From the NCBI GenBank assembly GCA_001768195.1, contig MENI01000062.1:873-47735 (forward strand): DNA of 46,863 bases, read 5' to 3'. Below the pieces are notes generated by a model. That model saw only the letters and a program-made list of their open reading frames with translations. It was not told where the DNA came from and ran no database searches. The stretch's first letter is position 1; each line of letters starts with the position of its first letter. Below, one piece after another: positions 26,870 through 46,422 of this stretch. This stretch comes from Bacteroidetes bacterium GWA2_40_15 (GTDB lineage: Bacteria; Bacteroidota; Bacteroidia; Bacteroidales; VadinHA17). The translations under genes and the position numbers were made by a program.

Positions 26870-27601
26870 ATGAAAGCACCATCATCTTTAATTAATCTAC
26901 TCCTGTTTTTTTCAATTTTGCTGACACCGGAAACAGTATCCGCACGCGATTACCATATAACTGATTATGGAGCAGTCAGAGGGACAAATTCAACGGCAGC
27001 CCTACAAAAAGCCGTTGACGAATGCTTTGCTTCCGGAGGCGGCAGGGTTGTCGTCCCCCCCGGAACCTTCATCACCGGTCCTGTTACACTGAAGAGCAAC
27101 ATAAATATATTCCTCGAAAGCGGCTCAGTGCTTAAGGGGAGTGAAAACATTGAAGATTACAAAGCAGGTAATTCCAGGAGAGGAATTTTTTTCTGCGAGG
27201 ATGCATGTAATGTGTCGATTACAGGCGATGGAACTATTGATGCAAGCGGATCGTATTTCTATGATTTCAGCCAGAATCACGGTTCCCCTGATTTCGAAAG
27301 ATCCCTTACCAGACAAAAGGAAGAATATATGAAAGATGGTACCTTCTTTACCGACGGACCGGTGAAAAGAATTTCAATGCCAGGCATGACAATAGTCTTC
27401 TTCCACTGCACCGGGGTTACTTTGTCTGGCATAACAGTTAAAGACACCCCGATCTGGGCAATCAGGTTTGGTTATTGTGAAGATGTTCTTATAGAAGGCA
27501 TTACAATAAGGAACAATGTCCTTATACCGAACAGTGACGGGATACATTGCACCGCATCGCGAAACATAAGAATCTCCGATTGTGATATTGTGGCCGGTTG
27601 A
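26870..27601 (+). pseudogene. GH28 polygalacturonase-like gene, truncated by an internal deletion
   Basis: 243 residues: signal peptide (about 1-25), then the opening of a GH28 right-handed beta-helix (DYHITDYGAVRGTNSTAALQ, with VVVPPGTFITGPVTLKSNIN). It runs through the usual helix turns to NSDGIHCTASRNIRISDCDI. It stops at VAG just where GH28 enzymes carry the catalytic Gly-Asp-Asp, so the active site and C-terminal half are absent; full enzymes have about 450-500 residues. After the stop, a shifted frame at 27594-27707 reads PVEVTDFDNLRIDSFQGEAS, which could be the far C-terminus, so the middle seems to have been lost. It would have cut pectic galacturonan; as it stands it cannot. Confidence 0.75.
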
Positions 27602-27660
27602 AGTAACTGATTTCGATAACCTGAGAATTGACAGCTTTCAGGGTGAAGCTTCTTATAATT

Positions 27661-27876
27661 CAAAGAATACTCAAGGAAAGATGGATGGAACAGAATCCGC
27701 AGGATAAGAAAAGGGTAATGTGGGATCTGGCATTAGTTGAAGCATACCTTAACCCGGATAAGTCAACCATCATCAAAGCTTCCACACCTCCTGAAAACAA
27801 GCAGAGAGAGATCAGAGTATTTTCAAAAATCGATGAGAAAGCTTTAGCCGAAGATTTTTGGAATTCATTGAACAAT
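27661..27876 (+). pseudogene. nucleoside hydrolase-like C-terminal fragment
   Basis: The frame reads LKERWMEQNPQDKKRVMWDL, then EAYLNPD, TPPENKQREIRVFSKIDEK and DFWNSL, resembling the last ~70 residues of exported Bacteroidota inosine/uridine-type nucleoside hydrolases. Nothing upstream in this frame encodes the Asp-rich N-terminus of that family, and downstream the frame runs into the convergent GH9 gene without a natural end. It therefore looks like a leftover from the event that damaged the GH28 gene. The family call is from memory of its C-terminal phrase and is tentative. Confidence 0.5.
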
Positions 27877-27914
27877 GATCACTTAACCATAAACAGCAGT
27901 TCAGGATATACTGT

Positions 27915-32185: not shown

Positions 32186-33511
32186 ATGGATCGAAGAAAA
32201 TTCATAAGCAATACAGCATTAACGACAGCCGGAATAGGTATGTCTGGGATTCTTGCTGCAAAAAACATTTCCGACTCTCCGGCTCCCTCAGATACTGTGA
32301 ACATTGGCCTCATCGGATGCAGGAATATGGGATACGGAGATCTGCAGCAGCATCTCTCAAATCCCGGAGTGAATTGCGTTGCATTGTGCGACGTTGATGA
32401 GAATGTGCTGAACGAGAAAGCAGCAGATCTGAAAAAGAAATTCAACCAGTCGCCAAAGCTTTACAAAGACTTCAGAAAACTCCTTGAGCAGAAGGATATC
32501 GATGCTGTTATAATAGGAACGCCTGATCACTGGCACTGCCTGATGACTGTTTATGCTCTTCAGGCAGGCAAGGATGTTTACGTGGAGAAACCGATGGCAA
32601 ATTCCATTGCCGAATGCAATATTATGGTTAAAGCTGCAAATTATTACAGCAACCGGATTGTTCAGATCGGTCAGCAGCAGAGAAGCGGATTTGTTTTCCT
32701 GAAAGCGATGGAACTAATTAAATCAGGAAAGATCGGAAACCTGAGGAGGGTAAATATCTGGGCTAATTTTTCATATGGAGTGGGACAACAAATTGTTCCC
32801 GATGAGCCTGTTCCTTCAGGAGTTGATTTTGACATGTGGCTCGGCCCTGCACCATCAAGATCTTTCAATAAAACAAGGTTCCATGGAGTATGGAGGATGT
32901 TCTGGGATTACGGCGGAGGATTGATGTCTGACTGGGGAGTTCATCTTCTCGACATAGCTCTATGGGCTAAAGATATCACTACCGCACCGGAAAAGGTCCT
33001 TATTTACGGAGCTAATACATTCGAAGAACCAAGGAGCAGGGAGACCTTCGATTCAATGTCGGTAATATATCCCAAATCTGATTTTGTAATAAACTGGGAT
33101 ATGACAGCCGGTATCCAGAGCGGGCCATATGATTCCCCTTACGGGCTTGCATTCGTGGGTGATCTGGCCACAATTACAGTCGACAGGAATAAACTCATTG
33201 TCCGCCCTGAATGGGATAGTCTTGCTAAGAAAACCAAGACAGATGAGTATAAATTTACTGAAGGAAAAGAGTCTCATTCAGACCATGCAAAAAACTTCAT
33301 AGAGTGCATAAAAACAAGGTCAAAACCTGCATGTCCGCCTGAGATTGGAAGGGCTGCAGCAATTCATGTGCATATTCCCAACATAGCTGCCAGAACCGGT
33401 GAATCGATGTTATTATGGGATGATGCAAATAACAGATTCACTAACAGTGAGAAAGCAAACCAGCTTATTAAGCCAGCCTATCGTCAGCCATGGACATTGC
33501 CCTCATTTTAG
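32186..33511 (+). CDS. Tat-exported Gfo/Idh/MocA-family oxidoreductase
   Basis: 441 residues. Tat signal MDRRKFISNTALTTAGIGMS, then a Rossmann fold (NIGLIGCRNMGYGD, variant of GxGxxG), the catalytic motif VYVEKPMANS, VQIGQQQRSGF and DWGVHLLDIALW. These belong to the large exported Gfo/Idh subgroup of Bacteroidota and Planctomycetes, thought to oxidise or reduce sugars with tightly bound NAD(P). Divergent from the lipoprotein/GH9 operon (55-bp spacer) and followed by a Tat-exported isomerase, so the two probably act one after the other on a released sugar outside the cytoplasm. Confidence 0.9.
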   Translation: MDRRKFISNTALTTAGIGMSGILAAKNISDSPAPSDTVNIGLIGCRNMGYGDLQQHLSNPGVNCVALCDVDENVLNEKAADLKKKFNQSPKLYKDFRKLLEQKDIDAVIIGTPDHWHCLMTVYALQAGKDVYVEKPMANSIAECNIMVKAANYYSNRIVQIGQQQRSGFVFLKAMELIKSGKIGNLRRVNIWANFSYGVGQQIVPDEPVPSGVDFDMWLGPAPSRSFNKTRFHGVWRMFWDYGGGLMSDWGVHLLDIALWAKDITTAPEKVLIYGANTFEEPRSRETFDSMSVIYPKSDFVINWDMTAGIQSGPYDSPYGLAFVGDLATITVDRNKLIVRPEWDSLAKKTKTDEYKFTEGKESHSDHAKNFIECIKTRSKPACPPEIGRAAAIHVHIPNIAARTGESMLLWDDANNRFTNSEKANQLIKPAYRQPWTLPSF

Positions 33512-33606: not shown

Positions 33607-34452
33607 ATGATAACACGTCGAAAATTTATTACAGGTACAGCAGCTGCTATATCAGTTGCTCTCTTAGCTCCTGAATCTCTTGCAGTTCAGGAGAAGAAAA
33701 AACTTAAAAATTTCGGTTTCATTTCCGGAATAATAGGTAAAGAACTTAAAGGCGACTGGAAAGCTGTCCTGAAACAGGCTGCATCATATGGATTCACCGA
33801 GATTGAAACAGGTAATTTCATGGGTGATTCGGCTGAAACCTTCCTTGCTTATCTTAAAGAAATAGGGATGTCACTTCCGGCAGGCGGTTTTGAATTTAAA
33901 GCAGGTGAAGAAGACTTAAAGAAAAGCATGACACTGCTTAAAAGCCTTAAAGTAAAATATGCTATAGTCTATTGGCCATGGTATACCGGTGGCCCATTCA
34001 CTCTGGAAGATTGTAAAAAGAGCACAGAGAGACTGAACTACCTGGGCAAAGTATGCAAGGATAACGGACTAATACTGTGCTGGCACAATCATAATAAGGA
34101 ATTTACACCAATGGATAATGGCCTGCCATTTGACTACCTGATGAATAATACCGATAAAAACCTGGTTTTCTGCGAGCTCGATCTCTACTGGGTAAGAAAG
34201 GGAGGTGCTGATCCTCTTGAGGTAATGAAGAAATATTCCGGAAGATTTCCCGTTTTGCATGTTAAGGATATGGTTCCCGGTGATTTACAGGATTTCGAAT
34301 GTCCCGGATCAGGGATTTTAGATTTTCTATCCCTGTTTAAAGAGGCTGACAAACATGGAATAAAACACTATATTGTAGAGAGAGATAATGTTCCTGATGG
34401 TCTTGCCTGTCTTAAATCATCAGGTAATTATCTTAAAAATCTGACATTCTGA
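33607..34452 (+). CDS. Tat-exported sugar isomerase/epimerase-like TIM barrel
   Basis: 281 residues. Tat signal MITRRKFITGTAAAISVALL, then a xylose isomerase-like barrel with the metal-site phrases LCWHNHNKEF, FCELDLYWVRKGG, VLHVKDM and YIVERDN. Compared with the protein at 22274-23164 this one keeps the Asp in the third strand motif. It lies downstream of an exported Gfo/Idh oxidoreductase and 26 bp before a sulfatase. Pairs of this kind have been linked to oxidation, isomerisation or elimination of keto-sugars in Bacteroides. Substrate unknown. Confidence 0.87.
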   Translation: MITRRKFITGTAAAISVALLAPESLAVQEKKKLKNFGFISGIIGKELKGDWKAVLKQAASYGFTEIETGNFMGDSAETFLAYLKEIGMSLPAGGFEFKAGEEDLKKSMTLLKSLKVKYAIVYWPWYTGGPFTLEDCKKSTERLNYLGKVCKDNGLILCWHNHNKEFTPMDNGLPFDYLMNNTDKNLVFCELDLYWVRKGGADPLEVMKKYSGRFPVLHVKDMVPGDLQDFECPGSGILDFLSLFKEADKHGIKHYIVERDNVPDGLACLKSSGNYLKNLTF

Positions 34453-34478: not shown

Positions 34479-35909
34479 ATGAAAAAGATTTCTCATAGAC
34501 ACTTGGTATTTTGTATTGGTGCTATCGCAGCTTCTGCCTGCAGTGACAATAATGCTAATAAAAAACCCAATGAATCCAGTCCAAATATTTTGTTCATAGC
34601 AGTTGATGATTTGAGACCTGAATTAGGATGCTATGGCAACAGGATCATTTCCTCTCCTAATATAGACAGGCTTGCTTCCGCCGGTGTAGTGTTCCAGCGG
34701 GCATATTGTAATATACCAGTATCAGGAGCTTCGCGCGCCAGCTTACTAACAGGAACAAGACCAACAAGTTACAGATTTATTGATTTTGACACCTGGGCAG
34801 AAAAGGATAACCCGGGGGCTCTTACTCTCCCAAAACATTTCAGAAACAACGGTTATTATACTGTCTCTCTGAGCAAGGTATTTCATCATATGTATGATAG
34901 CAGGGATTCATGGGATCAAGAATGGAGGCCTTCCGGCAAAGGATCATGGAGGAATTACACCAAGGAAGATAATATCAGGATCGATACTCTTATTAAAAGG
35001 GGGATGCCATTTGAGTGTTCTGATGTTCCGGATACTGCATATTTCGATGGTAAAACGACACAGAAAGCAATAGAATTCCTAAGAGATTCCGGGAATAAAG
35101 GAAAGCCTTTCTTCCTGGCTGTAGGATTCCTTAAGCCACATCTTCCTTTCAATGCTCCAAAAAAATACTGGGATATTTATGATCCTTCAGTTATAGGCAC
35201 AGCAAATAATCCTTATCCTCCCAAAGATGCTCCATCACAGGCACTCCATAAGTGGGGTGAATTAAGGCAATACTATTCAATCCCTGAAACGGGATCCCTT
35301 TCCGATTCTGCTGCAAACAAGCTTCGTCACGGCTATTATGCTTGTGTAAGCTATGCTGATGCACAAATCGGGCTAATACTTGATGAACTGGAGAAAAACG
35401 GACTTGCAGAAAACACGATAGTCATCCTGTGGGGCGACCATGGATGGAACCTTGGAGAACATGGGCTCTGGTGTAAACATTGTAACTTCAATACCTCACT
35501 TAATGCACCGCTTATAATTAAGGTCCCCGGATTGACCCATGGAAGTAAGAATAACATTATCACGGAGTTCATCGATATATACCCTACACTTTGTGAACTG
35601 ACGGGCATTTCTCTTCCTTCTCACCTGGAAGGAGAAAGCCTTGCAGGCAGACTGAAAAATCCTGAAAAACAGGAGAAAGATTTTGCTGTAAGCAAATTCT
35701 TTGCGGGAGTAACACTTATTCAGGATGATTACTTCTATACAGAGTTCCTCAATGAAAAGGATTCGGCAGTTGCAAATATGTTATTTGATCACAATTCCGA
35801 TCCCGATGAAAATATAAATCTCTCAAAAAATGAAGATTTTAAAGCTATGGTTACATCATTCTCGTCGGAGCTCAGACAGAAACGGGGTAATGCATTCGTG
35901 AAGAATTAA
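34479..35909 (+). CDS. Ser-type S1 sulfatase (iduronate-2-sulfatase-like), lipoprotein
   Basis: 476 residues. Probable lipoprotein signal ending AASAC (Cys21). ILFIAVDDLRPELGCYG carries the metal-binding Asp pair (Asp43-Asp44). The active-site sequence VSGASRASLLTG has Ser82-Gly-Ala-Ser-Arg86, the S-x-A-x-R form that an anaerobic sulfatase-maturing radical SAM enzyme turns into formylglycine. HGWNLGEHGLWCKH near 325 supplies further metal/sulfate ligands. Removes sulfate from a glycan, probably at the cell surface. No maturase gene is in the window. Its place beside the apiose genes suggests either a sulfated substrate or independent use. Confidence 0.92.
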   Translation: MKKISHRHLVFCIGAIAASACSDNNANKKPNESSPNILFIAVDDLRPELGCYGNRIISSPNIDRLASAGVVFQRAYCNIPVSGASRASLLTGTRPTSYRFIDFDTWAEKDNPGALTLPKHFRNNGYYTVSLSKVFHHMYDSRDSWDQEWRPSGKGSWRNYTKEDNIRIDTLIKRGMPFECSDVPDTAYFDGKTTQKAIEFLRDSGNKGKPFFLAVGFLKPHLPFNAPKKYWDIYDPSVIGTANNPYPPKDAPSQALHKWGELRQYYSIPETGSLSDSAANKLRHGYYACVSYADAQIGLILDELEKNGLAENTIVILWGDHGWNLGEHGLWCKHCNFNTSLNAPLIIKVPGLTHGSKNNIITEFIDIYPTLCELTGISLPSHLEGESLAGRLKNPEKQEKDFAVSKFFAGVTLIQDDYFYTEFLNEKDSAVANMLFDHNSDPDENINLSKNEDFKAMVTSFSSELRQKRGNAFVKN

Positions 35910-35944
35910 TATAGTATATTTAAAATAAGAAAGGATATTTATAG

Positions 35945-37882
35945 GTGTCAACAGATATCAGACACATATGGTCAGGTGATCATATCCAGAAACCTGGTGT
36001 AACGCTAAATGCCGGAAGACTTACTATGCTGTATGAAAATGGCAGTATCAGGTATATATCAGCAGGAGAAAATGAGATAATCAGAATGATTTATTCTGCG
36101 GTCAGGGATAAGGAATGGCTGACAATAAAACCGGTGATAACAAATGAATGGATTGAAAGAGGTTCCAGCTCATTCAAAATTGTATATAGATGTCTGTACA
36201 AGTCGCGGGAGGTTAATTTTTCAGCCCGTTACCTGATTGAAGGGCAGTCTGATAATAAAATAAGCTTAAGTTTTGAAGGTGAAGCGCTTGATACTTTTGA
36301 AAAATGCCGCATCGGCTTCTGTGTTTTGCACCCGGTGGAAAACTGTTCAGGTAAACCATGCATAATTACCCACAGTGATCAAAGTACAGAAACATGCATA
36401 TTTCCTGTTGAAATTGATCCTCTGCAGCCATTCAGAGACATTAATTCCATGAGATGGGAAGCAAACGGGACTGAATTCCGACTTGATTTTTCGGGAGATA
36501 TATTTGAGACAGAAGACCAGCGAAACTGGACAGATACTTCATATAAGACATATTGTACACCTCAGAGCCTGCCTTCACCTTCTTTAATAAGGAAGGGAGA
36601 AAAGATAAACCAGAAGGTCATTCTGAAAGTAGTCAGGAGCTTTCCTGAAAAGAAAGGCCCGGCTGTTCAGCAAACAATAACAATCAACCCTGAGATTCAT
36701 CTTCCCCTGCCAAAGATTGGAATCAGTCGTTCCACAAGAGATATCCCTTTAACAGAAAATGAAGCAGGAACAATTAAAAATATCGGGTTTGATCATTACC
36801 GTACCGATCTGCACATGTACACCAGTGATTGGAAAAAGAAAGCTGATCTGGCTGGAAAAGAGGCTCTGGAGATGGGATATCCTCTTGAGCTGGCTCTCTT
36901 CTTTGATGATGGATTTCTTCGCGAGGTGAATGATCTCATCGAATGGATATCATCCTGCAATCCACGAATATCAGTTATTTTACTTTATCACAGAACCTGG
37001 TTAGTAACTCCCCTAATCCTTACAAGCCTTGTAACCCCTCTTCTTAAGAAAGCTATACCCCTGTTGATAACAGGCTATGGCACCAATGCAAATTTTGCCC
37101 AGATCAATTTCGACAGACCTGAGTCGGCACCAGGTGATCTTATATGCTATTCAGTTCAACCTCAGGAACATGCATCTGACAATACTACTCTGACCGAAAA
37201 TCTGCAGGCTCAGTTGCATACTGTTGAGAGCGCCAGGCAGTTTTCAGATGGAAGAGGAATATGGGTATCACCTGTCAATATCAAGAGAAGGTTTAATGCA
37301 AACGTAGAAAACTATGAAACTCCTCATACGGAAGATTCTCTTCCTCCTCAGGTTGACAGCAGGTTAATGTCACTATTTGGCGGCTGCTGGACAGCAGGAA
37401 GCCTTAAATATCTCTGTGAATCAGGATTAAGCGGGGCAACATATTATGAAACAGCCGGAGAAAGAGGTATCATTCAGGGTGATCTCCCTTCAAGATGGCC
37501 GGATAGGTTTCAGTCTGTTCCGGGAATGATCTTTCCTGCTGCAACTGTATTTAAGTTTCTTCTTCAGGATAAGTTCCTGAAGGTGATTAAAAGCAGCAGT
37601 TCGCATCCCCTGAAATTTGATTGCCTTGTACTATCCGATGGAAAAAAGACCAGGATAATTGCAGTTAATTTTACTGCTGACAGGCAAAATATATCCATAA
37701 CGGGAATACCGGGTCATGCAGGTTTGAGACAATTGCATGCAGGAAATTATCCGGATGCAGTAAGCGATCTGAAATGGATAGATAATTCTCCCTGTACAAG
37801 AATTAACCTTATAGAAAATCTTCTTCTGGAACCTTTTTCAATAAGTTTCATAAATACTGAATGGATTGTTAACGATATCTGA
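35945..37882 (+). CDS. apnL: D-apionate lactonase (D-apionolactone to D-apionate)
   Basis: 645 residues with no signal peptide, so cytoplasmic. It matches the ApnL family over its first half: LTMLYENGSIRYIS, IGFCVLHPVENCSGKPC and especially DQRNWTDTSYKTYCTPQSLP. The family hydrolyses the lactone made by D-apiose dehydrogenase. Starts with GTG at 35945, nine bases after AAAGGA, one of the few good ribosome sites here. A sugar transporter follows after 49 bp, and ApsD and ApnO homologues lie 3.5-5 kb downstream on the same strand, which is why the specific name is used. The main alternative is a lactonase for another branched sugar acid. Confidence 0.8.
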   Translation: MSTDIRHIWSGDHIQKPGVTLNAGRLTMLYENGSIRYISAGENEIIRMIYSAVRDKEWLTIKPVITNEWIERGSSSFKIVYRCLYKSREVNFSARYLIEGQSDNKISLSFEGEALDTFEKCRIGFCVLHPVENCSGKPCIITHSDQSTETCIFPVEIDPLQPFRDINSMRWEANGTEFRLDFSGDIFETEDQRNWTDTSYKTYCTPQSLPSPSLIRKGEKINQKVILKVVRSFPEKKGPAVQQTITINPEIHLPLPKIGISRSTRDIPLTENEAGTIKNIGFDHYRTDLHMYTSDWKKKADLAGKEALEMGYPLELALFFDDGFLREVNDLIEWISSCNPRISVILLYHRTWLVTPLILTSLVTPLLKKAIPLLITGYGTNANFAQINFDRPESAPGDLICYSVQPQEHASDNTTLTENLQAQLHTVESARQFSDGRGIWVSPVNIKRRFNANVENYETPHTEDSLPPQVDSRLMSLFGGCWTAGSLKYLCESGLSGATYYETAGERGIIQGDLPSRWPDRFQSVPGMIFPAATVFKFLLQDKFLKVIKSSSSHPLKFDCLVLSDGKKTRIIAVNFTADRQNISITGIPGHAGLRQLHAGNYPDAVSDLKWIDNSPCTRINLIENLLLEPFSISFINTEWIVNDI

Positions 37883-37931
37883 TCTGAAACTTATATTTTT
37901 ATAAAAACCGGAAACTTAAACATTATAATTT

Positions 37932-38933
37932 ATGGTACTTGTTCAGAATTACGGATTAGCGGTATTTCTGTGTTTTGTTGCAATGGTATGCTGGGGATCG
38001 TGGCAGAACACACAGAATCTTATTGGCAAAGAGTGGCGTTTTGAACTTTTCTACTGGGATTATTCTATCGGAATATTGCTCTTTGCTCTTATTATGGCAT
38101 TTACTTTTGGCAGTTTTGGAGAAGAAGGCCGCAGTTTTATGCCCGATCTGGCCCAGGCCGATCCAAAAAATCTGCTCTCATCAGCGCTGGGCGGATTTAT
38201 CTGGAATATAGGTACACTGCTGCTTGTTGCTTCAATATCAATTGCCGGCATGTCAGTTGCCTTCCCTATCGGAGGCGGTATAGGCTGGACACTCGGAATC
38301 CTGATAAATTACATAGGGAAACCTGAGGGTAATCCTGCACTCCTTTTCGGCGGAACAGCTGTAATCATTCTGGCTATACTGGTAAGTATGCAATCGTACA
38401 GGAAGCTCGCCGTTCATCAGAAGAAACCTTCCTTTAAGGGCATTGCACTTGCTTTCGCTGCCGGTTTATGCATTGCATTCTTCTACAGGTTTGTGGCCTC
38501 CTCGATGGCGACAGACTTCTCCCCTGCCGACGATGGAAAGATAAGCTCTTATACTGCGGTGGTATTCTTTTCTATCGGTGCTCTCTTAAGCACAATTATT
38601 GTGAATCCCATATTTATGGCCAGACCGGTACAGGGCTCGCCGGTTAAATTTTCGGAATGGATCAGGGGTAATTCCAGGGCGCATCTTCTGGGAATGCTGG
38701 GTGGAGCAATCTGGTGCCTTGGCAACTCTGTCAGCTTTATGTCAGTGGGTGCAGCAAGTCCGGCAATATCATATGGATTGAGCAATGCAGCACCGGTTGT
38801 TGCTGCACTATGGGGAATCTTTATCTGGAAAGAATTCAGGGATGCACCAAAGGGTACAAACCTGCTGCTGACGCTGATGTTTGCTTTCTACCTGGTCGGG
38901 TTGGTGCTTATCGTTTACTCGAGATTTGCATAA
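37932..38933 (+). CDS. DMT/ureide-permease-like sugar transporter (apiose candidate)
   Basis: 333 residues, about ten membrane helices. Paralogue of the 23310-24311 transporter with exactly the same length: MVCWGSWQNTQNL, FYWDYSIG, GMSVAFPIGGGIGWTLGILI and ALWGIFIWKEFRDAPKG line up with it. It lies between the apionate lactonase and the apiosidase genes, so D-apiose is the most likely cargo across the inner membrane, while its paralogue next to ribokinase would take ribose. The substrate is inferred from neighbours only. Confidence 0.82.
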   Translation: MVLVQNYGLAVFLCFVAMVCWGSWQNTQNLIGKEWRFELFYWDYSIGILLFALIMAFTFGSFGEEGRSFMPDLAQADPKNLLSSALGGFIWNIGTLLLVASISIAGMSVAFPIGGGIGWTLGILINYIGKPEGNPALLFGGTAVIILAILVSMQSYRKLAVHQKKPSFKGIALAFAAGLCIAFFYRFVASSMATDFSPADDGKISSYTAVVFFSIGALLSTIIVNPIFMARPVQGSPVKFSEWIRGNSRAHLLGMLGGAIWCLGNSVSFMSVGAASPAISYGLSNAAPVVAALWGIFIWKEFRDAPKGTNLLLTLMFAFYLVGLVLIVYSRFA

Positions 38934-38944
38934 ATTTAACATGT

Positions 38945-39070
38945 ACTCACCCCCCGGCCCCCTCTCTACTTCGTAAAGAGGGGGTGTAAAAAATAATAAG
39001 TTTAGAAATTTCCCCCTCATTGCAAAGCAGAGAGGGGGAGTCCTGAGCGGAGCGAAGGAAGGGGGTGAGT
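38945..39070. repeat. MITE-like palindromic intergenic element
   Basis: 126 bp bounded by exact 10-bp inverted ends (ACTCACCCCC at 38945, GGGGGTGAGT at 39061-39070). Inside are two C-run/G-run hairpins (CCCCCTCT...AGAGGGGG and TCCCCCTC...GAGGGGGA) plus GTCCTGAGCGGAGCGAAGGA. No coding content. The type is common between Bacteroidota genes. The CCCCTCC/GGAGGGG hairpin at 46837-46857 is related in composition. Confidence 0.82.
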
Positions 39071-39116
39071 TCATGAGACAAAATAATAATGATTTAATCT
39101 ATATAAAAACAATTCC

Positions 39117-40520
39117 ATGAATAAGTTTATAACTCTGATTATCTTAGCATTATTTACCTTCACACTCTCCCACTCCCAGGAAAAACCCTGGCAGGGCCCC
39201 TCTGCCGATCTGTCGCATGGGAAACTGATGGTTTCCGAAAATAAAAGATACCTGGTTCACGAGGACAGAACTCCCTTCTTCTACCTTGGCGATACCGGAT
39301 GGGAGCTTTTTCACAGATTGAACAAAGATGAAACTGAAAAATACCTCGAAAACCGAAGGGCCAAAGGATTCACTGTAATACAGGCAGTTGCACTTGCCGA
39401 ACTCGACGGGCTGAATACTCCCAATTCAGAAGGCAACAAACCTTTGATCAATAATGATCCCTTAAAACCGAATGAATCCTACTTTGCCCATGTTGACTGG
39501 GTGATAAAGAAGGCTGCCGAAAAAGGTCTTTATATTGGTTTACTTCCAACATGGGGCGATAAGGTGGATCCACAAAGATGGGGAAAGGGTCCGAAGGTAT
39601 TCAATAAAGAGAATGCATTCGGATACGGAAAGTGGATAGGGGCGAGATATAAAGATTACAAAAATATTATCTGGATCAACGGTGGCGACAGGCAGGGAGG
39701 GGGCGATAACTTCGAGGTATGGAATGCACTGGCTGAAGGTATTAAATCTGTTGACAAGAACCATCTGATGACTTATCATCCGATGGGTGAGAACAGCTCT
39801 TCCACATGGTTTCATAACAGTTCATGGCTTGATTTTAATATGATACAAACCGGACACGGACAGAGGTCCTATGCAGCTTACCTCAGATATGTAGTCAGGG
39901 ATTACAATCTGCAGCCTGTTAAGCCCTGCCTTGATGGCGAACCGAGGTATGAAGATCATCCGGTAAACTGGAATCCAAATGTAATGGGCTGGTTCGACGA
40001 TGCCGATGTAAGGCAGGCTCTTTACTGGAACCTCTTCAGCGGTGCATTCGGCCATACATACGGATGCCATCCGATATGGCAGATGAAGACTCCCGATAGA
40101 GAAGCCGTAGGTCTTGCCAGGAATAACTGGTACGATGTTCTTGATCTGCCCGGGGCATCTGACCTTATTCATGCCCGCAGACTAATTGAATCACGTCCTT
40201 TTCTCTCGAGAATCCCTGACCAGTCTCTTATTGTCCCGGCATATTATCCTGAAACTGACTATGTTGTTGCCACACGCGGGGATGGCTATGCTTTTGTGTA
40301 CTTCCCGACAGGATGGAGTGCAGAAATTGATCTTGAAAAAATGAAAAGTGAAGCTGTTCATTCCTACTGGTATGACCCCAGGACAGGGGAATCAACTCTT
40401 ATCGAGACTATCGATGATATGAGACCCAGGAAGTTCACGCCGCCTTCAAACGGGAGAGGTAATGACTGGGTCCTTATACTTGATGACGTCTCCAAAGGAT
40501 TTAACTTACCGGGTAAGTAA
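39117..40520 (+). CDS. GH140-type apiosidase (DUF4038)
   Basis: 467 residues with a signal peptide (about 1-20, ending SHS). HGKLMVSENKRYLVHEDRTP with FFYLGDTGWELFHRLN is the opening of the DUF4038/GH140 barrel known from a Bacteroides thetaiotaomicron apiosidase that removes apiose from rhamnogalacturonan II. Candidate catalytic residues are Asp191 in NIIWINGGDRQGGG and Glu275 in PCLDGEPRYEDHP, the Asp/Glu pair of that family. A C-terminal collagen-binding-like beta domain follows from about 385. The reaction is release of D-apiose from a side chain, outside the cytoplasm. One base separates it from the next gene, and apiose-oxidising enzymes follow within 2 kb. Confidence 0.87.
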   Translation: MNKFITLIILALFTFTLSHSQEKPWQGPSADLSHGKLMVSENKRYLVHEDRTPFFYLGDTGWELFHRLNKDETEKYLENRRAKGFTVIQAVALAELDGLNTPNSEGNKPLINNDPLKPNESYFAHVDWVIKKAAEKGLYIGLLPTWGDKVDPQRWGKGPKVFNKENAFGYGKWIGARYKDYKNIIWINGGDRQGGGDNFEVWNALAEGIKSVDKNHLMTYHPMGENSSSTWFHNSSWLDFNMIQTGHGQRSYAAYLRYVVRDYNLQPVKPCLDGEPRYEDHPVNWNPNVMGWFDDADVRQALYWNLFSGAFGHTYGCHPIWQMKTPDREAVGLARNNWYDVLDLPGASDLIHARRLIESRPFLSRIPDQSLIVPAYYPETDYVVATRGDGYAFVYFPTGWSAEIDLEKMKSEAVHSYWYDPRTGESTLIETIDDMRPRKFTPPSNGRGNDWVLILDDVSKGFNLPGK

Positions 40521-40521
40521 C

Positions 40522-41331
40522 ATGCAAATCGGTTTAAGTTCATATACCTACACCTGGGCAGTCGGTGTTCCGGGATCAATGCCCGGGAACCCACTGACTG
40601 CCAAAGGAATTATTGATAAAGCAGCTGAATCAGGACTGAAACTGGTCCAGATTGCTGATAATCTTCCACTTGAAAAATTCCCGGAAGATGAATTGAATGA
40701 TCTGCTTGGATATGCGATACAAAATAAGGTAGAGATTGAAATGGGAGGCCGGGGCATGACTCCTGAACACACCATGCAATGCCTGAAAACAGCAGAACTT
40801 CTGAAATCACAAATCCTGAGGATGGTAATTGATGGTCAGGATTTCGAACCTGACATTCCTGAAATATCCGGAATTATAAAAGATCTTTTACCTGAATTCA
40901 GATCGAGGAATATCACTCTTGCTATCGAGAATCACGACCGTTTGATGGCGTGGGAATTTGAAAGGATAATACAGAATGTCGGAAGTGAACTGGTTGGTAT
41001 ATGTCTTGATTCTGTAAACTCAATGGGAGCTGGTGAAGGCTTTGAAGAGGTAGCCCGGATCCTTATTCCTTACACCGTAAATTTCCATATTAAGGATTTT
41101 ACTATCAGGAGAGTGTCGCACAAAATGGGAATCATTATTGAAGGTACTCCTGCTGGCAAAGGTCGGCTTAATATAAGAGAGGTCGTCAATAAGCTGAAGC
41201 AAAAAGGACAATGCAGCAGTTCCATACTGGAGCTATGGACCCCTCCTGAACAGGATATTAAAAGTACTATTTTAAAAGAGAACCGGTGGGCTGAGGAGAG
41301 TATTGAATATTTGAAGAAAATCATAACCTGA
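40522..41331 (+). CDS. oiaC: xylose isomerase-like TIM barrel; candidate 3-oxo-isoapionate decarboxylase
   Basis: 269 residues from the ATG at 40522, directly after the apiosidase stop; an earlier in-frame start would overlap that gene and add no known domain. Cytoplasmic, no signal. All four metal ligands are visible: Glu136 (LAIENHDR), Asp163 (GICLDSVNSMG), His189 (VNFHIKDF) and Glu237 (SILELWTPP). In known oxidative apiose pathways the OiaC decarboxylase (3-oxo-isoapionate to L-erythrulose and CO2) is, as I recall, of this fold. With ApsD and ApnO next to it and no kinase or RuBisCO-like protein in the window, OiaC is the best guess. An apiose isomerase is the alternative. Confidence 0.62.
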   Translation: MQIGLSSYTYTWAVGVPGSMPGNPLTAKGIIDKAAESGLKLVQIADNLPLEKFPEDELNDLLGYAIQNKVEIEMGGRGMTPEHTMQCLKTAELLKSQILRMVIDGQDFEPDIPEISGIIKDLLPEFRSRNITLAIENHDRLMAWEFERIIQNVGSELVGICLDSVNSMGAGEGFEEVARILIPYTVNFHIKDFTIRRVSHKMGIIIEGTPAGKGRLNIREVVNKLKQKGQCSSSILELWTPPEQDIKSTILKENRWAEESIEYLKKIIT

Positions 41332-41333
41332 TC

Positions 41334-41399
41334 TGCGATAATCAGCGTGATCTGCGCGAAAAAGTATTTCCCGCAGATTTCGCAGATTTGCGCTGATTT
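41334..41399. repeat. inverted repeat of CGCAGATT/AATCTGCG words
   Basis: AATCAGCGTGATCTGCG (41340-41356) and CGCAGATTTGCGCTGATT (41381-41398) form an imperfect inverted repeat, with extra GATCTGCG (41331-41338) and CCGCAGATTT (41371-41380) copies. It occupies almost the whole 80-bp spacer between the oiaC candidate and apsD. This word family is a known dispersed repeat in Bacteroidota. A hairpin here could also lower transcription of the downstream genes. Confidence 0.7.
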
Positions 41400-41411
41400 A
41401 AAAAATAACTT

Positions 41412-42446
41412 ATGGGAAAATTAAAATTTGCAGTATTAGGTTGCGGATTCTGGTCGAAATTCCAGATTGGCGCCTGGAGCGAACTTGAAGGAGTCGAACT
41501 TGTTGCGGTATATAACCGGACTATTTCAAAAGCTCATAAAATTGCTGACTACTTTAAGGTTCCGGCGACTTATGATGATCCTGAAAAGCTGTTCCGGAAT
41601 GAAAAACTTGATTTTATTGACATTATAACAGATGTTGACACTCACGCCCATTTTGTAAATATGGCGGTAAAGAATGCAATAAAACACATTATCTGCCAGA
41701 AACCAATGGCTCCTGATTTTGAAACTGCCAAAGGAATGGTGGAATTGTGCAAAAATGCAGGAGCAAAACTCTACATTCATGAAAACTACCGCTGGCAGGC
41801 TCCTGTAAGAAGGTTAAAGCAGATAATTGATTCAGGTGTAACAGGCAAGCCATTCAAAGCCAGAGTCTCCTTTCTCTCAGGTTATCCGGTATTCGACAAC
41901 CAGCCATTCCTGAAGGAGCTTGACCACTTCATTCTCACTGATATGGGGTCGCATGTACTCGATGTAACGAGGTACCTTTTTGGGGAATGTAATGACCTTT
42001 GGTGCGAGACAAGAGCGGTAAACAAGGGTATTAAAGGTGAGGATCTCGCTGTGATCATGATGAATATGAAGAACGGCATGCCGGTATATACTGAGATGTC
42101 GTATGCCTCAATCGTTGAGCATGATTCATTTTCAACACTTCATATCCTTGTTGAAGGTGAAAAGGGATCTGTATACCTTGGACCAAAATTTGAGATACGC
42201 ATTACAACAAAAACCGGAACTGTTTCGGAAACTGTAAAGTTTCCATCCTATACCTGGGCTGATCCTGATTATATAGTAAACCATGAAAGCGGAATTCATG
42301 TAAACCGCAATATACTTGAGGCAATTCAGGGCACAGGTAAAGCGGAAAACACCGGAGATGATAACCTGGAAACTGTAAGGCTTATATGGGCATGTTACAA
42401 TTCGGCAAAATCAGGGAAAAAGATCAGAATTGAAGAGTTCATTTAA
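41412..42446 (+). CDS. apsD: D-apiose dehydrogenase (Gfo/Idh/MocA family)
   Basis: 344 residues, cytoplasmic, no Tat signal (unlike the oxidoreductase at 32186). Rossmann motif FAVLGCGFWSKFQIGAW, then ITDVDTHAHF, the catalytic Lys97 in IICQKPMAP (Gln in place of the usual Glu), HENYRWQAPVRRL, SGYPVFDNQPFLKELDHF, DMGSHVLDVTRYLFG (His181) and TWADPDY. These phrases match the ApsD family, which oxidises D-apiose with NAD+ to D-apionolactone. Its product is the substrate of the lactonase at 35945. It is 16 bp upstream of apnO. Family membership is strong; substrate specificity is inferred. Confidence 0.82.
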   Translation: MGKLKFAVLGCGFWSKFQIGAWSELEGVELVAVYNRTISKAHKIADYFKVPATYDDPEKLFRNEKLDFIDIITDVDTHAHFVNMAVKNAIKHIICQKPMAPDFETAKGMVELCKNAGAKLYIHENYRWQAPVRRLKQIIDSGVTGKPFKARVSFLSGYPVFDNQPFLKELDHFILTDMGSHVLDVTRYLFGECNDLWCETRAVNKGIKGEDLAVIMMNMKNGMPVYTEMSYASIVEHDSFSTLHILVEGEKGSVYLGPKFEIRITTKTGTVSETVKFPSYTWADPDYIVNHESGIHVNRNILEAIQGTGKAENTGDDNLETVRLIWACYNSAKSGKKIRIEEFI

Positions 42447-42462
42447 TATTATACGAGGAAAA

Positions 42463-43290
42463 ATGCAAAAAGTTACACTTGTTGGAGCAGGAGGTAAGAT
42501 GGGTTTCCGTCTGACCCAGAATCTTAAGAATTCAGATTATGAGATGGCCTACCTTGAAATCAGTCCGCAGGGTATGCAAAAGCTTGGAGAAAAAGGTATT
42601 GTGGTTACCAGCGCAGGGAACTGTATTCCTGAAGCCGACATCGTCATACTCGCAGTGCCTGATGTAGCGTTGTCAATGGTCTCAGGGGAAATGATTCCGA
42701 TGATGAAAAGCGGAGCGCTGGTTGTAACACTTGACCCGGCAGCTGCTCTGGCAGGAAAGCTCTTTTCACGGAGCGATGTATCATATTTCATAACCCATCC
42801 TGCTCATCCTTCCATTTTCAACTGGGAATCCGAGGAGGAGAAAATGAAAGACCACTTCGGAGGTATAGCTGCAAAGCAGTCAATTGTTTGTGCCCTGATG
42901 AGTGGCACTGATGACGACTATCTTAAAGGAGAAATACTTGCGCGAACATTTTATGGACCAATTCATCGTTCCCACAGAATAACAGTTGAACAGATGGGGC
43001 TTCTCGAACCGGCCCTGGTTGAGACACTGGCATCTACCTGTATTTATGTAATACGTCAGGGGCTCGATGAAGTGATTAAGAGAGGCGTTCCTGCCGAGGC
43101 TGCGAGGGATTTTCTGTTAGGTCATCTCCGTATCCAGATGGCGGTCCTCTTCAATGAACTTCCCGGCGCTGTCTTTTCAGATGCCGCAAATAAAGCGCTG
43201 CAAAGAGGATTAAAAGAATTCATTAAGGATGACTGGAGGAAAGTTTTTGAACCGGAGAATGTAAGGGATCAAATAGCTTCAATAACATGA
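42463..43290 (+). CDS. apnO: D-apionate oxidoisomerase
   Basis: 275 residues from the ATG at 42463, which has GAGGA six bases upstream; an in-frame TTG at 42430 overlaps apsD and is less likely. NAD-binding loop VTLVGAGGKMGFRLTQNL (4-21), then ADIVILAVPDVALS, YFITHPAHPSIFNWE, FGGIAAKQSIVCALMSG, ITVEQMGLLEPALVETLAST and AARDFLLGHLRIQMAVLFN. This is the ApnO type of 6-phosphogluconate-dehydrogenase-like fold, converting D-apionate to 3-oxo-isoapionate with NAD+. Lies between apsD and the beta-propeller gene, overlapping the latter by 4 bp. Its pairing with apsD and apnL homologues is the main support for the substrate. Confidence 0.8.
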   Translation: MQKVTLVGAGGKMGFRLTQNLKNSDYEMAYLEISPQGMQKLGEKGIVVTSAGNCIPEADIVILAVPDVALSMVSGEMIPMMKSGALVVTLDPAAALAGKLFSRSDVSYFITHPAHPSIFNWESEEEKMKDHFGGIAAKQSIVCALMSGTDDDYLKGEILARTFYGPIHRSHRITVEQMGLLEPALVETLASTCIYVIRQGLDEVIKRGVPAEAARDFLLGHLRIQMAVLFNELPGAVFSDAANKALQRGLKEFIKDDWRKVFEPENVRDQIASIT

Positions 43291-44561
43291 AAAGATTACT
43301 GATTTTTCTGATTGCCGGTATACTGCTGGTAAACAATCACGCAACAGCTCAGCAGACAAACTGGAGCCACTTCAGGGGAAACAACCTCAACGGGATATCC
43401 GATTCGGAAAACCTTCCGGTTCAGTGGAATGAAGCACAAAATATTTTATGGAAAATACCCATTGCCGGTAAAGGGTGGTCCTCTCCTGTGGTTTGGGGCG
43501 AACAGGTGTGGTTAACCACCGCCTCCCCATATGGAAGAGAGATGTCCGGCATTTGTCTGAATTCAAAAACCGGCAGGGAGATCTTCAATATCAGACTATT
43601 TGAACTGGATAAAACGTATTCAAAGCATGATTTCAATACGTATGCCACACCAACTCCATGCATTGAGCAAGGATTCGTATATATCCATTTCGGTACTTCC
43701 GGAACAGCATGCCTCAGAACAACAGATGGTTCAGTGGTCTGGAAACGAACTGATCTTAACTGTGAGCACATACAGGGACCTGCTTCATCACCGGTAATAT
43801 ATAAAAATATGCTGATCCTTCATTTGGAAGGATCTGACATTCAATACATTGTGGCACTTGACAAAACCACCGGGAAAACTATCTGGAAAACAGACAGGCC
43901 TGCAGAGGTATATGATAAACTCAAACCCATTGGTAAAAAAGCCTACATAACTCCCATTATAATAAATGTAAAGGGAAGAGACCTGCTGATATCAAACGGT
44001 TCTGCTGCCTGCATTGCATATGATATTCTTACAGGCAAAGAGGTGTGGAGGGTTGTCCAGGGAGAAGACTCAACCATATCAATGCCGGTAACAGAAAATG
44101 GAATTGTATACTTCTACACCGGCTTCGTTACCCCTGGTGAAGGTGAACAGTATGCCGAATTGCTTGCCGTTGATCCGGCCGGTTCGGGTGATGTGACATC
44201 GACACATGTTAAATGGAGGTTCAAAGGAGCTGTTCTTCAGCTTCTTACACCTCTCATAAAGGATGGACTGATTTATACTGTGGACACTAAAAATAACCTG
44301 TTCTGTATTGATGCAGCTACAGGAAAACAGGTGTATACCAGGAGAATGACAGCCAAATATAACTCCTCCCCTGTTTATGCCGGAGGAAATATCTACTTTA
44401 CGTCGGTTCAGGGAGAAACAACTGTTATAAAAGAGGGAAGAAAACTTGAGATAGTATCCCGCAACAAGCTTACAGGGGAAATATATGCAACTCCTGCCAT
44501 AACAGGTAATAAACTGTTAATCAGAACTGCAACTGACATGTATTGTATTGGGATAAACTAA
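43287..44561 (+). CDS. exported PQQ-like beta-propeller protein
   Basis: 424 residues with a signal peptide (about 1-22, ending ATA). Repeating blades of the quinoprotein/BamB type: WSHFRGNNLNGISDSENLPV, ILWKIPIAGKGWSSPVVWG, SVVWKRTDL, TIWKTDRP and EVWRVVQGE, each with the W-x-x-x start and GxxV patterns. No haem site and no clear PQQ-ligand set is seen, so it is more likely a scaffold or binding protein than a dehydrogenase. Its ATG overlaps the apnO stop (ATGA), so it is translated together with a cytoplasmic apiose enzyme although it is exported. Role unknown. Confidence 0.85.
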   Translation: MKRLLIFLIAGILLVNNHATAQQTNWSHFRGNNLNGISDSENLPVQWNEAQNILWKIPIAGKGWSSPVVWGEQVWLTTASPYGREMSGICLNSKTGREIFNIRLFELDKTYSKHDFNTYATPTPCIEQGFVYIHFGTSGTACLRTTDGSVVWKRTDLNCEHIQGPASSPVIYKNMLILHLEGSDIQYIVALDKTTGKTIWKTDRPAEVYDKLKPIGKKAYITPIIINVKGRDLLISNGSAACIAYDILTGKEVWRVVQGEDSTISMPVTENGIVYFYTGFVTPGEGEQYAELLAVDPAGSGDVTSTHVKWRFKGAVLQLLTPLIKDGLIYTVDTKNNLFCIDAATGKQVYTRRMTAKYNSSPVYAGGNIYFTSVQGETTVIKEGRKLEIVSRNKLTGEIYATPAITGNKLLIRTATDMYCIGIN

Positions 44562-44750: not shown

Positions 44751-44777
44751 AGTGCCGCAAAAAAAATTTGTGACACT
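44751..44777 (-). terminator. hairpin at the end of the transposase gene
   Basis: AGTGCCGCAAA and TTTGTGACACT pair around an A-run with two mismatches, overlapping the transposase stop codon. It could end transposase transcription or block read-through into the element from neighbouring genes. Confidence 0.4.
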
Positions 44778-46422
44778 ACATTTCTTCCTTTTTCAATATT
44801 TTTGGTGGGATCTTAATGCTTATCGCGTTTAAAAGCTTCATGGCATTTTCCGGGATATCAGTTCTCACCCAAATTGTCTGGTTCCTCATTTTTATCGGGA
44901 TAGCAAATACCTGATTGAGTTCCTTTAAACCTTGAACGGATGTTAATGGCCTGGGTTTAATACAATCTTTCTCAATAGCTTTTGAGTTAAGTAATTCGGC
45001 TTTCGCACGGAGATTTTTTGTCAGGTGTGCCTCACAAAGGTATGCAAGGAAACAGACCATGATGTGACCAATAATACGATCATCTGTCCAATGGAAAACG
45101 GGTCTGGTTTTGAATGTTCCTTTAAGTTCGCCGAAAGCGTCCTCTATCCGCCAGAGTTGTTTGTACTCTGAAATGATATGGGCAGCCGACATAGCCTCCT
45201 TTTTTACATTGGTAATTATGCCAAAGAACCCATCCTTTTTTCTCTCTTTTTCAATTGCCTGATGGTTAATCGCTGGCTTGTTGTTACTGCTGATACAAAC
45301 ATATTTTTTGTAATTGGTATTGCTGACAAAATCTTTAACGGTCACATTTTTTCTGGATAGCTTTATCCTGATTTTATCCAGTATTTCCTCTCTGGCTTTG
45401 TGATCCCTTTCTGCCCGGCTCTTTGACCACGTAACTATGTAGCGATCTTCATCTTTTTGGGTTTCATACCAGGCAAGTTCATCATTAACAAAAGAGAATC
45501 GATCGATGTCATAAAATTCATCCCGAATGATTTTTTTACTGGTTCCGATTTTGAACCCCACGATGAACTCACCACAATCTTTTCTCAAATATTTTAAGTT
45601 TTCAGTCGAAAATAGGCCCCGGTCAGCTACAAAAATAAAACGGTTGACAGTAAATTTTTTGCGCAGTTTTCTTACCATTCCTTCAAGGGTCTTGCCTTCA
45701 AAGGTATTACCCGGGTGAACTTCAAATCCAAGCGGGATACCTTCAGTGTCGGTCAGCAATCCCAAGACCACCTGGGTACAATCACTGCGCCTTTCCTTGC
45801 TGTAACCAAACCTTGGTAAATCCCCCAGGTCAGTCCGTGTACTCTCAAAACGAAGGGTTGTTAAATCGTAAAGAACAACATCAACCTGAACGTTGAACAG
45901 ATCTTTTCCATAATAAAAAAGTTGTTTTTCAATATCTTCCTTATGGGTGCTGAGTAAATCCAGACTCCTGTAAAAATGATGAAGTTCAATTTCGTTATCA
46001 AATAATCCGGGATAAAACCGATCCAGCATTCTATCCCAGAGACCAAGTTTGGAAATTGGTTCCATAAATCTTGATACCACCATTGAAAAAACAGCCCTTT
46101 CAAATTTAAACTGCAAACGATCATGTTTTTGAGCAATACCTGATAGTACATTACTGATACCCAATTGATCTGCCATATGTTGTAAAAGCAACAACGGACC
46201 ATACAGGTAGGCCTGGCTTATGTCAATTGATGAAGCCAGGTTCAGAGCGGTAACCCTATCGAGATGTTTATTAACAGCTTCTGCCAATTTTTGAAGTTTC
46301 CCCTCTTCGACCCGACCCAGGGAAAGCAGCACCCGCTGACGTACTTTCCCGTCACGGCGAAAGGACTCAACAAGATGATAATAAGCTTCACCACGACTGT
46401 TTTTTGTAATTCGGATATACAT
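44776..46422 (-). CDS. IS1634-family transposase (DDE)
   Basis: 548 residues, apparently intact. DDE residues: Asp186 in VVLYDLTTLRFES, Asp267 in FIFVADRGLFS and Glu427 in YKQLWRIEDAFGELKG, followed by Lys434 in the Y-R-E-K signature of the IS4 superfamily. The N-terminal segment YIRITKNSRGEAYYHLVES is typical of the IS1634 branch. Cuts and joins the 18-bp ends of the element at 44702-46577. A TATGTTTG box on the minus strand just upstream (46441-46448) may be its promoter. Confidence 0.93.
   Translation of the reverse strand: MYIRITKNSRGEAYYHLVESFRRDGKVRQRVLLSLGRVEEGKLQKLAEAVNKHLDRVTALNLASSIDISQAYLYGPLLLLQHMADQLGISNVLSGIAQKHDRLQFKFERAVFSMVVSRFMEPISKLGLWDRMLDRFYPGLFDNEIELHHFYRSLDLLSTHKEDIEKQLFYYGKDLFNVQVDVVLYDLTTLRFESTRTDLGDLPRFGYSKERRSDCTQVVLGLLTDTEGIPLGFEVHPGNTFEGKTLEGMVRKLRKKFTVNRFIFVADRGLFSTENLKYLRKDCGEFIVGFKIGTSKKIIRDEFYDIDRFSFVNDELAWYETQKDEDRYIVTWSKSRAERDHKAREEILDKIRIKLSRKNVTVKDFVSNTNYKKYVCISSNNKPAINHQAIEKERKKDGFFGIITNVKKEAMSAAHIISEYKQLWRIEDAFGELKGTFKTRPVFHWTDDRIIGHIMVCFLAYLCEAHLTKNLRAKAELLNSKAIEKDCIKPRPLTSVQGLKELNQVFAIPIKMRNQTIWVRTDIPENAMKLLNAISIKIPPKILKKEEM

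Follow-up and report, generated by a model that had tools for sequence, protein, structure and literature searches.

Apiose occurs in many plant glycosides, and its oxidative catabolism has been worked out in bacteria other than Bacteroides thetaiotaomicron. The oxidative D-apiose pathways reportedly set out by Carter et al. in 2018 run through ApsD, ApnL, and ApnO and continue with OiaK and the RuBisCO-like protein (RLP) OiaX/OiaT, in proteobacterial clusters such as that on the Shinella plasmid pShin-03. In apionate route I, OiaC, a decarboxylase of the xylose isomerase family, gives L-erythrulose, and LerK and LerI follow. A nonoxidative D-apiose route of Escherichia coli is outlined in PMC13001218, whose account of it names apsI, the kinase gene aplK, and the transketolase genes aptA and aptB and describes the E. 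coli cluster itself as lacking apsI. In rhamnogalacturonan II (RG-II), apiose is described as holding the borate cross-link (PMC10952590), and BT1012 of B. thetaiotaomicron is reported to cut apiose off galacturonic acid in this polymer (PMC7939467). Here, we analyze a 46,863-nucleotide stretch of contig MENI01000062.1 from Bacteroidetes bacterium GWA2_40_15 (the window), in which a run of genes on the + strand at 34479 to 44561 is probably an operon that serves growth on plant glycans or glycosides containing apiose.

Like the clusters of Carter et al., this locus holds homologues of ApsD, ApnL, and ApnO together; unlike them, it carries a GH140 gene and lacks OiaK and RuBisCO-like genes, and a RhaT/ureide-permease-like importer stands where Shinella has an ABC importer. 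With route I, as seen on plasmids of Pantoea At-9b and Erwinia E602, it has in common a xylose-isomerase-like TIM barrel with an intact metal site, near ApnO in both. The nonoxidative pathway with ApsI, AplK, and AptA/AptB (PMC13001218) deals with the same sugar, and some plasmid clusters may use a TIM barrel from this family in it; in the window's own genome, however, no split transketolase was found, and the presence of ApsD and ApnO points to the oxidative route. The RG-II apparatus of B. thetaiotaomicron contains a member of the same GH140 family, whereas here the catabolic genes are directly joined to GH140 and a Pfam scan of 34 window proteins showed no SusD, in agreement with the initial annotation, which had seen no typical SusCD pair in the window. 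We found no description of the arrangement of GH140, importer, and oxidative apiose genes for Bacteroidota in the open-licence literature. What the locus offers is a new combination of known enzyme families and a known pathway, the oxidative module itself being widespread among phyla.

An oxidative apiose module with an apiosidase and an importer

The initial annotation had named six homologues on one strand, and all six were found where it placed them, uninterrupted on the + strand between 35945 and 43290. They comprise an ApnL-family protein, predicted to be a D-apionate/apionolactone lactonase (35945 to 37882; NCBIfam NF049900); a RhaT/ureide-permease-like membrane protein, predicted to import apiose (37932 to 38933; Pfam PF07168 and PF06800); a GH140 beta-apiosidase (39117 to 40520); a xylose-isomerase-like TIM barrel, predicted from its family, metal site, and context to be an OiaC-like 3-oxo-isoapionate decarboxylase (40522 to 41331); an ApsD homologue of the Gfo/Idh/MocA family, predicted to be an NAD-dependent D-apiose dehydrogenase (41412 to 42446); and an ApnO homologue, predicted to be a D-apionate oxidoisomerase (42463 to 43290). 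The broader claim, that an oxidative apiose module, GH140, and an importer share one locus, was borne out, and the arrangement is kept as a unit in this Bacteroidota lineage. From a sulfatase gene at 34479 to a PQQ-like protein gene ending at 44561, the genes are separated by 35, 49, 183, 1, 80, and 16 bp and then overlap by 4 bp; with gaps this small, the run is likely to be a single transcript, of which the sulfatase gene is perhaps part. Promoter-like sites between 31900 and 44800 number 25 against a mean of 29.7 in shuffled sequence, and terminator-like sites number 13 against 10.1; we draw no conclusion from these counts.

As judged by eye, export signals are present in the GH140 protein (at its N terminus), the sulfatase, and the PQQ protein and missing from ApnL, the TIM barrel, ApsD, and ApnO, a pattern that suggests release outside the cell or in the periplasm, import, and then oxidation in the cytoplasm. 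In the mechanism that we propose, exported GH140 would release D-apiose in the periplasm or outside, and the RhaT-like protein would carry it over the inner membrane. By homology to characterized families, ApsD would then convert D-apiose with NAD to D-apionolactone in the cytoplasm, ApnL would open the lactone to D-apionate, and ApnO would oxidize and rearrange D-apionate to 3-oxo-isoapionate. The gene context suggests that the TIM barrel at 40522 would, in a metal-dependent step, turn 3-oxo-isoapionate into L-erythrulose and CO2. It had been proposed that the locus takes apiose to 3-oxo-isoapionate and beyond: homology upholds the first steps, and for the part beyond, what stands is a TIM barrel that fits the route I decarboxylase by its gene context.

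The GH140 protein scores 416 bits against Pfam Apiosidase (PF13204), 498 bits against PDB entry 8t9w, named "Apiosidase," and 317 bits against 3kzs/5msy, which carry a generic name in the PDB listing and which we take to be BT1012. The catalytic motifs are kept, with D191 in GGD and E275 in DGEP aligned with 8t9w; the catalytic pair of BT1012 is presumably D187 and E284. Among the Pfam-scanned genes of 34479 to 44561, there is no second glycoside hydrolase. The enzyme could draw the released apiose from RG-II, apiogalacturonan, or apiosides.

The ApsD homologue matches PDB entry 5uhw at 241 bits over residues 2 to 340, the next structure scoring 76, and the ApnO homologue scores 287 bits against 5t57 and 217 bits against 3c24. 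We take 5uhw, listed as "Oxidoreductase protein," to be ApsD and 5t57, listed as "Semialdehyde dehydrogenase NAD-binding protein," to be ApnO. Residues Q96-K97-P98 and H181 of ApsD are invariant in 29 sequences, as are H112, H115, E182, and E187 of ApnO in 33. The window ApsD is 33 to 37% identical to the ApsD genes of four proteobacterial apn clusters (35% for Shinella), and the window ApnO is 47 to 50% identical to the proteins of Shinella (49%), Sinorhizobium, Martelella, and Cupriavidus, 42% to that of Halalkalicoccus, and 38% to that of Pantoea. Because the ApsD and ApnO homologues on Shinella pShin-03 sit beside an ApnL (813 bits) and an OiaX (775 bits) that both exceed their cutoffs, these identities are independently backed. 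With ApsD nearest 5uhw, ApnO nearest 5t57, and the conserved residues kept, comparison at the level of sequence and active site sides with the initial annotation, and we regard the family assignments of ApsD, ApnO, and GH140 as secure by sequence. The meaning of the shared ApsD-ApnL-ApnO module is supported by a Rhodobacteraceae strain that PMC11747546 describes as having annotated ApsD, ApnL, ApnO, OiaK, and OiaX genes and growing on D-apiose as the sole carbon source.

The ApnL homologue aligns with NF049900 over nearly its whole length (residues 11 to 585 on profile positions 8 to 593 of 595; 236 bits, E = 7e-70). It is 27.7% identical to the Paraburkholderia protein, 25.7% to that of Shinella, and 27.3% to that of Sinorhizobium (657, 614, and 517 columns, respectively); the Martelella protein aligns in two pieces, with 37.5% identity over 216 columns and 24.0% over 146. 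In an alignment of 30 ApnL sequences, F187-E188, E190-D191, and R193-N194-W195 are invariant. The protein is best called a distant full-length homologue that lies outside the equivalog as filed.

Recurrence of the locus in other genomes

Among 61 genomes searched, 10 contained ApnL, all of them within the 37 genomes of the window's genus, its own included, and 11 congeners held ApnL, the TIM barrel, or ApnO. The order RhaT-GH140-TIM-ApsD-ApnO on one strand was found in 6 of these 11 (G297, G313, G314, G317, G323, and G329), with some imperfections: in G314 the run includes one extra gene and the GH140 frame is short (300 amino acids), the TIM frame of G317 includes bases that were not read, and the contigs of G297 and G323 break off within ApnL or RhaT. 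In a seventh congener, G310, the same run is split over two contigs. G299 departs from this pattern: it has sulfatase-ApnL-ApsD-ApnO, and its TIM barrel is found on a separate contig, next to a distant relative from the Apiosidase family. In a sample of 296 genomes from the phylum, the ApnL model matched 3, own included, of which G249 (same class) has GH140 divergently adjacent and G190 does not have it.

A profile search of genome contigs gave at least 518 confirmed ApnL loci, of which the best 80 were analyzed; this set overlaps the congeners, L050, L051, L053, L055, and L057 being G314, G316, G310, G329, and G311. The gene set extends to more distant Bacteroidota, including Mariniphaga, Prolixibacteraceae, and Telluribacter humicola; in T. 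humicola KCTC 42819, the clearest named strain, TIM-ApnO-GH140-ApsD-ABC importer-ApnL stand in a row. Eight of the 80 loci carry GH140 proper (above 500 bits); their titles place all of them in Bacteroidota, and each also has the TIM barrel. Five weaker matches to the Apiosidase family (90 to 222 bits, one of them a contig-end fragment) were left out of this count. Beyond the genus, the 80 loci include ApnL together with ApnO in other Bacteroidota and in metagenome-assembled genomes (MAGs) of Chloroflexota, Acidobacteriota, Planctomycetota, Verrucomicrobiota, and Gemmatimonadota. Since the same gene set recurs in other genomes, its grouping is not due to chance.

The same survey bears on the importer, which scores 97 bits against Pfam Ureide_permease and 49 bits against Sugar_transport. 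Among the 26 loci of the best 80 that contain ApnO, 9 have a RhaT-like gene, 9 others have a ribose-type ABC importer, none has both, and 8 have neither (one-sided Fisher test, P = 0.008). Over all 80 loci, the exclusion is weaker (14 with one, 14 with the other, none with both; P = 0.05). This mutual exclusion in ApnO loci supports the prediction that the RhaT-like protein imports apiose.

Two further groups of loci came to light. ApnL accompanied by OiaK-like and RuBisCO-like genes was seen in Bacteroidota, Rhabdobacter roseus DSM 105074 among them, as well as in MAGs of Chloroflexota, Verrucomicrobiota, Planctomycetota, and Gemmatimonadota (L059, L077, L085, L106, and L121; L069, L082, L087, L098, L100, L114, and L116); three proteins of such loci scored 450 to 527 bits against the NCBI OiaX and OiaK models, whose cutoff is 700. 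ApnL without ApsD, ApnO, or TIM within about 10 kb was seen in Larkinella (L086, L099, L103, L107, and L113) and also in L029/L057; the Larkinella genes lie in housekeeping-looking surroundings common to all five loci, and this branch of ApnL may have another job. One ApnL match on a viral contig (E = 5e-4) had no module gene around it and was taken as chance.

A TIM barrel as the candidate decarboxylase

The TIM barrel at 40522 to 41331 belongs to Pfam AP_endonuc_2 (69 bits), and a PDB search found no close solved relative. The full metal site that the initial annotation had noted is there: the expected ligands E136, D163, H189, and E237 do not vary across 21 aligned sequences, the window protein among them, and neither do several further residues. 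A model built for this protein had 18 matches, all at 163 bits or more, and left the window's three other TIM barrels unmatched.

Its proposed role comes from context. On the Pantoea At-9b and Erwinia E602 plasmids, genes for a Dak kinase, a Tpi-like protein, the TIM barrel, and ApnO follow in order, with RpiB near, an arrangement that presumably corresponds to apionate route I. Among the 26 ApnO loci, the TIM barrel alone occurs in 13, OiaK/RLP alone in 9, both in 3, and neither in 1 (L115, a short contig), a contrast for which a one-sided Fisher test, ignoring shared ancestry, gives P = 6e-4. Of the 37 congeneric genomes, 9 have both TIM and ApnO, 1 has only TIM, 1 has only ApnO, and 26 lack both (Fisher P = 8e-7, shared ancestry again ignored); in G299, the two lie on separate contigs, yet both are in the genome. 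Because of this gene context, the distribution relative to OiaK/RLP, and the co-occurrence with ApnO, the predicted role of the TIM barrel is most likely that of the missing decarboxylase that converts 3-oxo-isoapionate to L-erythrulose.

Search for a step after L-erythrulose

The initial annotation had pointed out that genes acting after L-erythrulose are missing, and indeed no kinase, RuBisCO-like gene, or other known post-isoapionate gene was recognized in 34479 to 44561. We therefore looked to the rest of the genome, which is tabulated as 99.98% complete. PF00016 had no match in it at E = 0.001, and the RuBisCO-like route through OiaK and OiaX/OiaT was rejected on this ground. The single SBD_N kinase was set aside, as its neighbors are a gene resembling PdxA and, by eye, a permease of the GntP-like kind. 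The genome's Dak2 match is a 615-amino-acid frame without Dak1, probably a kinase of the fatty acid type; Dak2 matches, which 8 of 10 genomes contain (the own genome and those of nine congeners), were likewise set aside as not being Dak1, for which the own genome alone was searched. The own genome has seven FGGY matches, none of which could be tied to erythrulose; the apiose kinase of E. coli SE15 is itself an FGGY protein. A search with E. coli AptA found no split transketolase in the own genome, its three matches being a full-length transketolase (29%), 1-deoxyxylulose-5-phosphate synthase, and an E1-type dehydrogenase, and the nonoxidative route was rejected for this genome.

The 80 ApnL loci offered little more. 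No Dak-type kinase was found among them (Tpi-like genes were outside this search), and clustering of the neighbors showed no kinase besides OiaK in the 45 largest clusters, judged mostly by sequence starts. The clusters that recur with the TIM barrel hold module genes, components of ABC importers, the PQQ protein, a regulator of the GntR family, and a small number of hydrolases, with no recurrent gene for an erythrulose step evident among those 45. The RpiB neighborhood of L048 was uninformative. In one locus from Prolixibacteraceae, a gene for a zinc-type dehydrogenase separates ApsD from ApnO, a single case that does not carry far.

Weighing the alternatives

A number of observations weigh against reading the locus as an operon for apiose use in which the TIM barrel is the decarboxylase. 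The curated equivalog cutoff of NF049900 is 750 bits, and the window ApnL, at 236, is below it. The cutoff is narrow, since the ApnL of the canonical Martelella cluster scores 624 (elsewhere, Shinella scores 813, Paraburkholderia 770, an Opitutales MAG 325, Rhabdobacter 325, and Telluribacter 313), but the window protein falls far further short of it. The earlier claim that ApsD, ApnL, and ApnO lie in one cluster stands as far as homologues of all three are concerned, in the window and in congeners, and is qualified by the low score of ApnL. Nor is ApnL by itself diagnostic of the apiose module: of the 33 loci whose flanks are complete, 21 lack every other module gene out to about 10 kb. Among the congeners, G316 has ApnL-RhaT-GH140-TIM followed by a gene on the opposite strand, with ApnO not found in the genome, G311 has ApnL alone, and G309 has an orphan ApnO. 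For the TIM barrel, no NCBIfam model scored above its cutoff, and three loci (L069, L071, and L100) carry it together with OiaK/RLP. In contrast to route I, the window protein is only 26% identical to that of Pantoea, and the Bacteroidota TIM barrels form a supported clade of their own (98/96), apart from the Pantoea/Erwinia pair and from alphaproteobacterial plasmid proteins. Four aligned members of this last group are 32 to 34% identical to the window protein, and five of eight such relatives adjoin split transketolase genes; these plasmid TIM barrels could be apiose isomerases. The comparison covered context homologues only, with no characterized OiaC or ApsI sequence among them. Route I also uses a Dak kinase gene, and PF02733 (Dak1) has no match in the own genome, so that the onward use of L-erythrulose would have to fall to an enzyme encoded elsewhere in the genome, such as a kinase of the FGGY family, a transketolase that accepts free erythrulose, or a reductase. 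Finally, presence thresholds in the 80-locus scan were set after the scores had been seen, and both the congener and the 80-locus counts ignore shared ancestry and come from overlapping sets.

Some of these points lend themselves to another interpretation, in which release, import, and the first three oxidative steps stand as proposed but the TIM barrel isomerizes D-apiose, or is some other sugar isomerase or epimerase, and 3-oxo-isoapionate is consumed by the products of genes located elsewhere. The five plasmid relatives adjoin SDR and TRAP genes besides the split transketolase, resembling the nonoxidative apiose route; their AptA-like proteins are 35 to 37% identical to E. coli AptA, and the three loci that combine the TIM barrel with OiaK/RLP fit an isomerase as well. 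Three of the eight plasmid TIM barrels, however, are directly followed by a Dak-type kinase, as in Pantoea and Erwinia, rather than the FGGY kinase of the E. coli cluster. The TIM barrel also replaces OiaK/RLP in most ApnO loci, and an isomerase would compete with ApsD inside the same operon and, with no split transketolase in the own genome, would lead nowhere known. We consider this interpretation unlikely, although it deserves to be kept in mind. As a separate observation, the plasmid clusters L037, L039, L042, L141, and L142 combine a TRAP importer, an SDR dehydrogenase, a split transketolase, a TIM barrel of the OiaC-like family, and in some cases a Dak-type kinase, and possibly serve a route leading from an acid to a ketotetrose or a variant form of nonoxidative apiose use.

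The low score of ApnL raises the question of whether the enzymes act on another branched or unusual sugar or lactone, with D-hamamelose the obvious choice, released by a hydrolase of the Apiosidase family. PF13204 is broad, and two other members in the window, at 12411 and 14975, score lower and carry DUF5060 domains; a D-hamamelose pathway with a RuBisCO-like protein is in print, as cited in PMC10176493. Apiose is nevertheless favored by an ApsD within the range of identity of canonical clusters and far from other Gfo/Idh/MocA structures, by an ApnO about half identical to four proteobacterial ApnO proteins, and by a GH140 protein closest to a deposited apiosidase with GGD and DGEP kept, and a different sugar seems to us a rather poor prospect. 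That these are generic sugar genes lying together by chance or in a loose neighborhood, such as plant-degrading Bacteroidota commonly have, with no pathway in common, we regard as very improbable. The flanks are indeed a patchwork of hydrolases, TIM barrels, and oxidoreductases, and ApnL can stand alone, but the set is met again in other genera and families, with its genes variously ordered, and in 35 of 37 congeneric genomes TIM and ApnO are either both present or both absent. An operon for apiose use, with the TIM barrel as candidate decarboxylase, is the reading that we retain.

Neighboring genes and other features of the window

The three upstream neighbors and the PQQ protein gene described here are on the + strand. 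Upstream lie a sulfatase-family protein, by eye a lipoprotein (34479 to 35909; Pfam Sulfatase), an IolE-like TIM barrel with an export signal by eye (33607 to 34452; AP_endonuc_2), and a Gfo/Idh/MocA oxidoreductase resembling glycoside 3-dehydrogenase (32186 to 33511; 181 bits against NF058561, whose cutoff is 750). Of nine congener loci, a single one (L030) has a close homologue of the sulfatase (72%) next to ApnL, and a distant one (39% over 93 residues) is near ApnL in L029; the flanking sulfatase is not a constant member of the apiose locus. Homologues of the IolE-like protein are on the ApnL contig in L024, L025, and L030, and the oxidoreductase has close homologues in L024 and L030 and a distant one in L031. 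Downstream, a PQQ-like beta-propeller protein with an export signal by eye and no assigned role (43287 to 44561; PQQ_2) has homologues directly after ApnO in L023, L031, and L151 and close by in L150 and L109; it is a frequent but not constant neighbor. An insertion sequence-type transposase follows at 44776 to 46422, just past the apiose genes. A GntR regulator, absent from the window operon, is present in 7 of the 80 loci (L049, L050, L052, L053, L065, L097, and L109) and also at L023:8329-9339 with a periplasmic-binding-protein-like domain; it is possible that this regulator is an apiose sensor.

The rest of the window contains further genes for carbohydrate use. On the - strand at 2 to 7103, a TonB-type receptor with a carboxypeptidase-regulatory domain (4371 to 7103, about 27 kb ahead of 34479 to 44561) adjoins two related DUF4249 genes, accompanied by a large protein without a Pfam match; the receptor and DUF4249 genes are a non-SusD outer membrane set. 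The two PF13204 "Apiosidase-like" proteins with DUF5060 domains, which score below GH140 (12411 to 14096 and 14975 to 16477, + strand), adjoin an alpha-L-rhamnosidase-family gene and a YdjC-like gene. A second sugar locus, on both strands at 17495 to 25256, encodes Hexokinase_1/2 domains, a DeoC aldolase, a GntR/UTRA regulator, a sugar porter of the major facilitator superfamily, an AP_endonuc_2 TIM barrel, a ribokinase, and another importer of the RhaT/ureide-permease-like type, the second in the window, and may serve another pentose or deoxyribose. A GH28 polygalacturonase frame at 26870 to 28014 (+ strand) ends after 243 amino acids, covering profile positions 8 to 160 of 324, and is directly followed by an unrelated 128-amino-acid frame without a Pfam match; the gene looks decayed or recombined.

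Implications

The link between an apiosidase and apiose catabolism provides candidates for a non-ABC apiose importer and for a decarboxylase clade. Parts of the system are present in named strains: Telluribacter humicola KCTC 42819 has the TIM barrel, as does Rhodocytophaga aerolata KACC 12507, and Rhabdobacter roseus DSM 105074 has OiaK and a RuBisCO-like gene. The NCBI cutoff for ApnL misses all four nonproteobacterial relatives that were scored, namely, those of the window, Telluribacter, Rhabdobacter, and the Opitutales MAG.

The locus also exposes a gap after L-erythrulose, where a potentially new step, the use of L-erythrulose itself, is suggested only by the absence of known genes. We tentatively put forward, as an idea that is on the doubtful side, a self-contained Bacteroidota apiose system in which GH140, a non-ABC importer, oxidation, and a distinct decarboxylase clade lead to unphosphorylated L-erythrulose that is used without a Dak kinase. 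If this were true, with L-erythrulose used, for example, directly by transketolase or by a new kinase, these bacteria would have a further apiose route beside the known ones.

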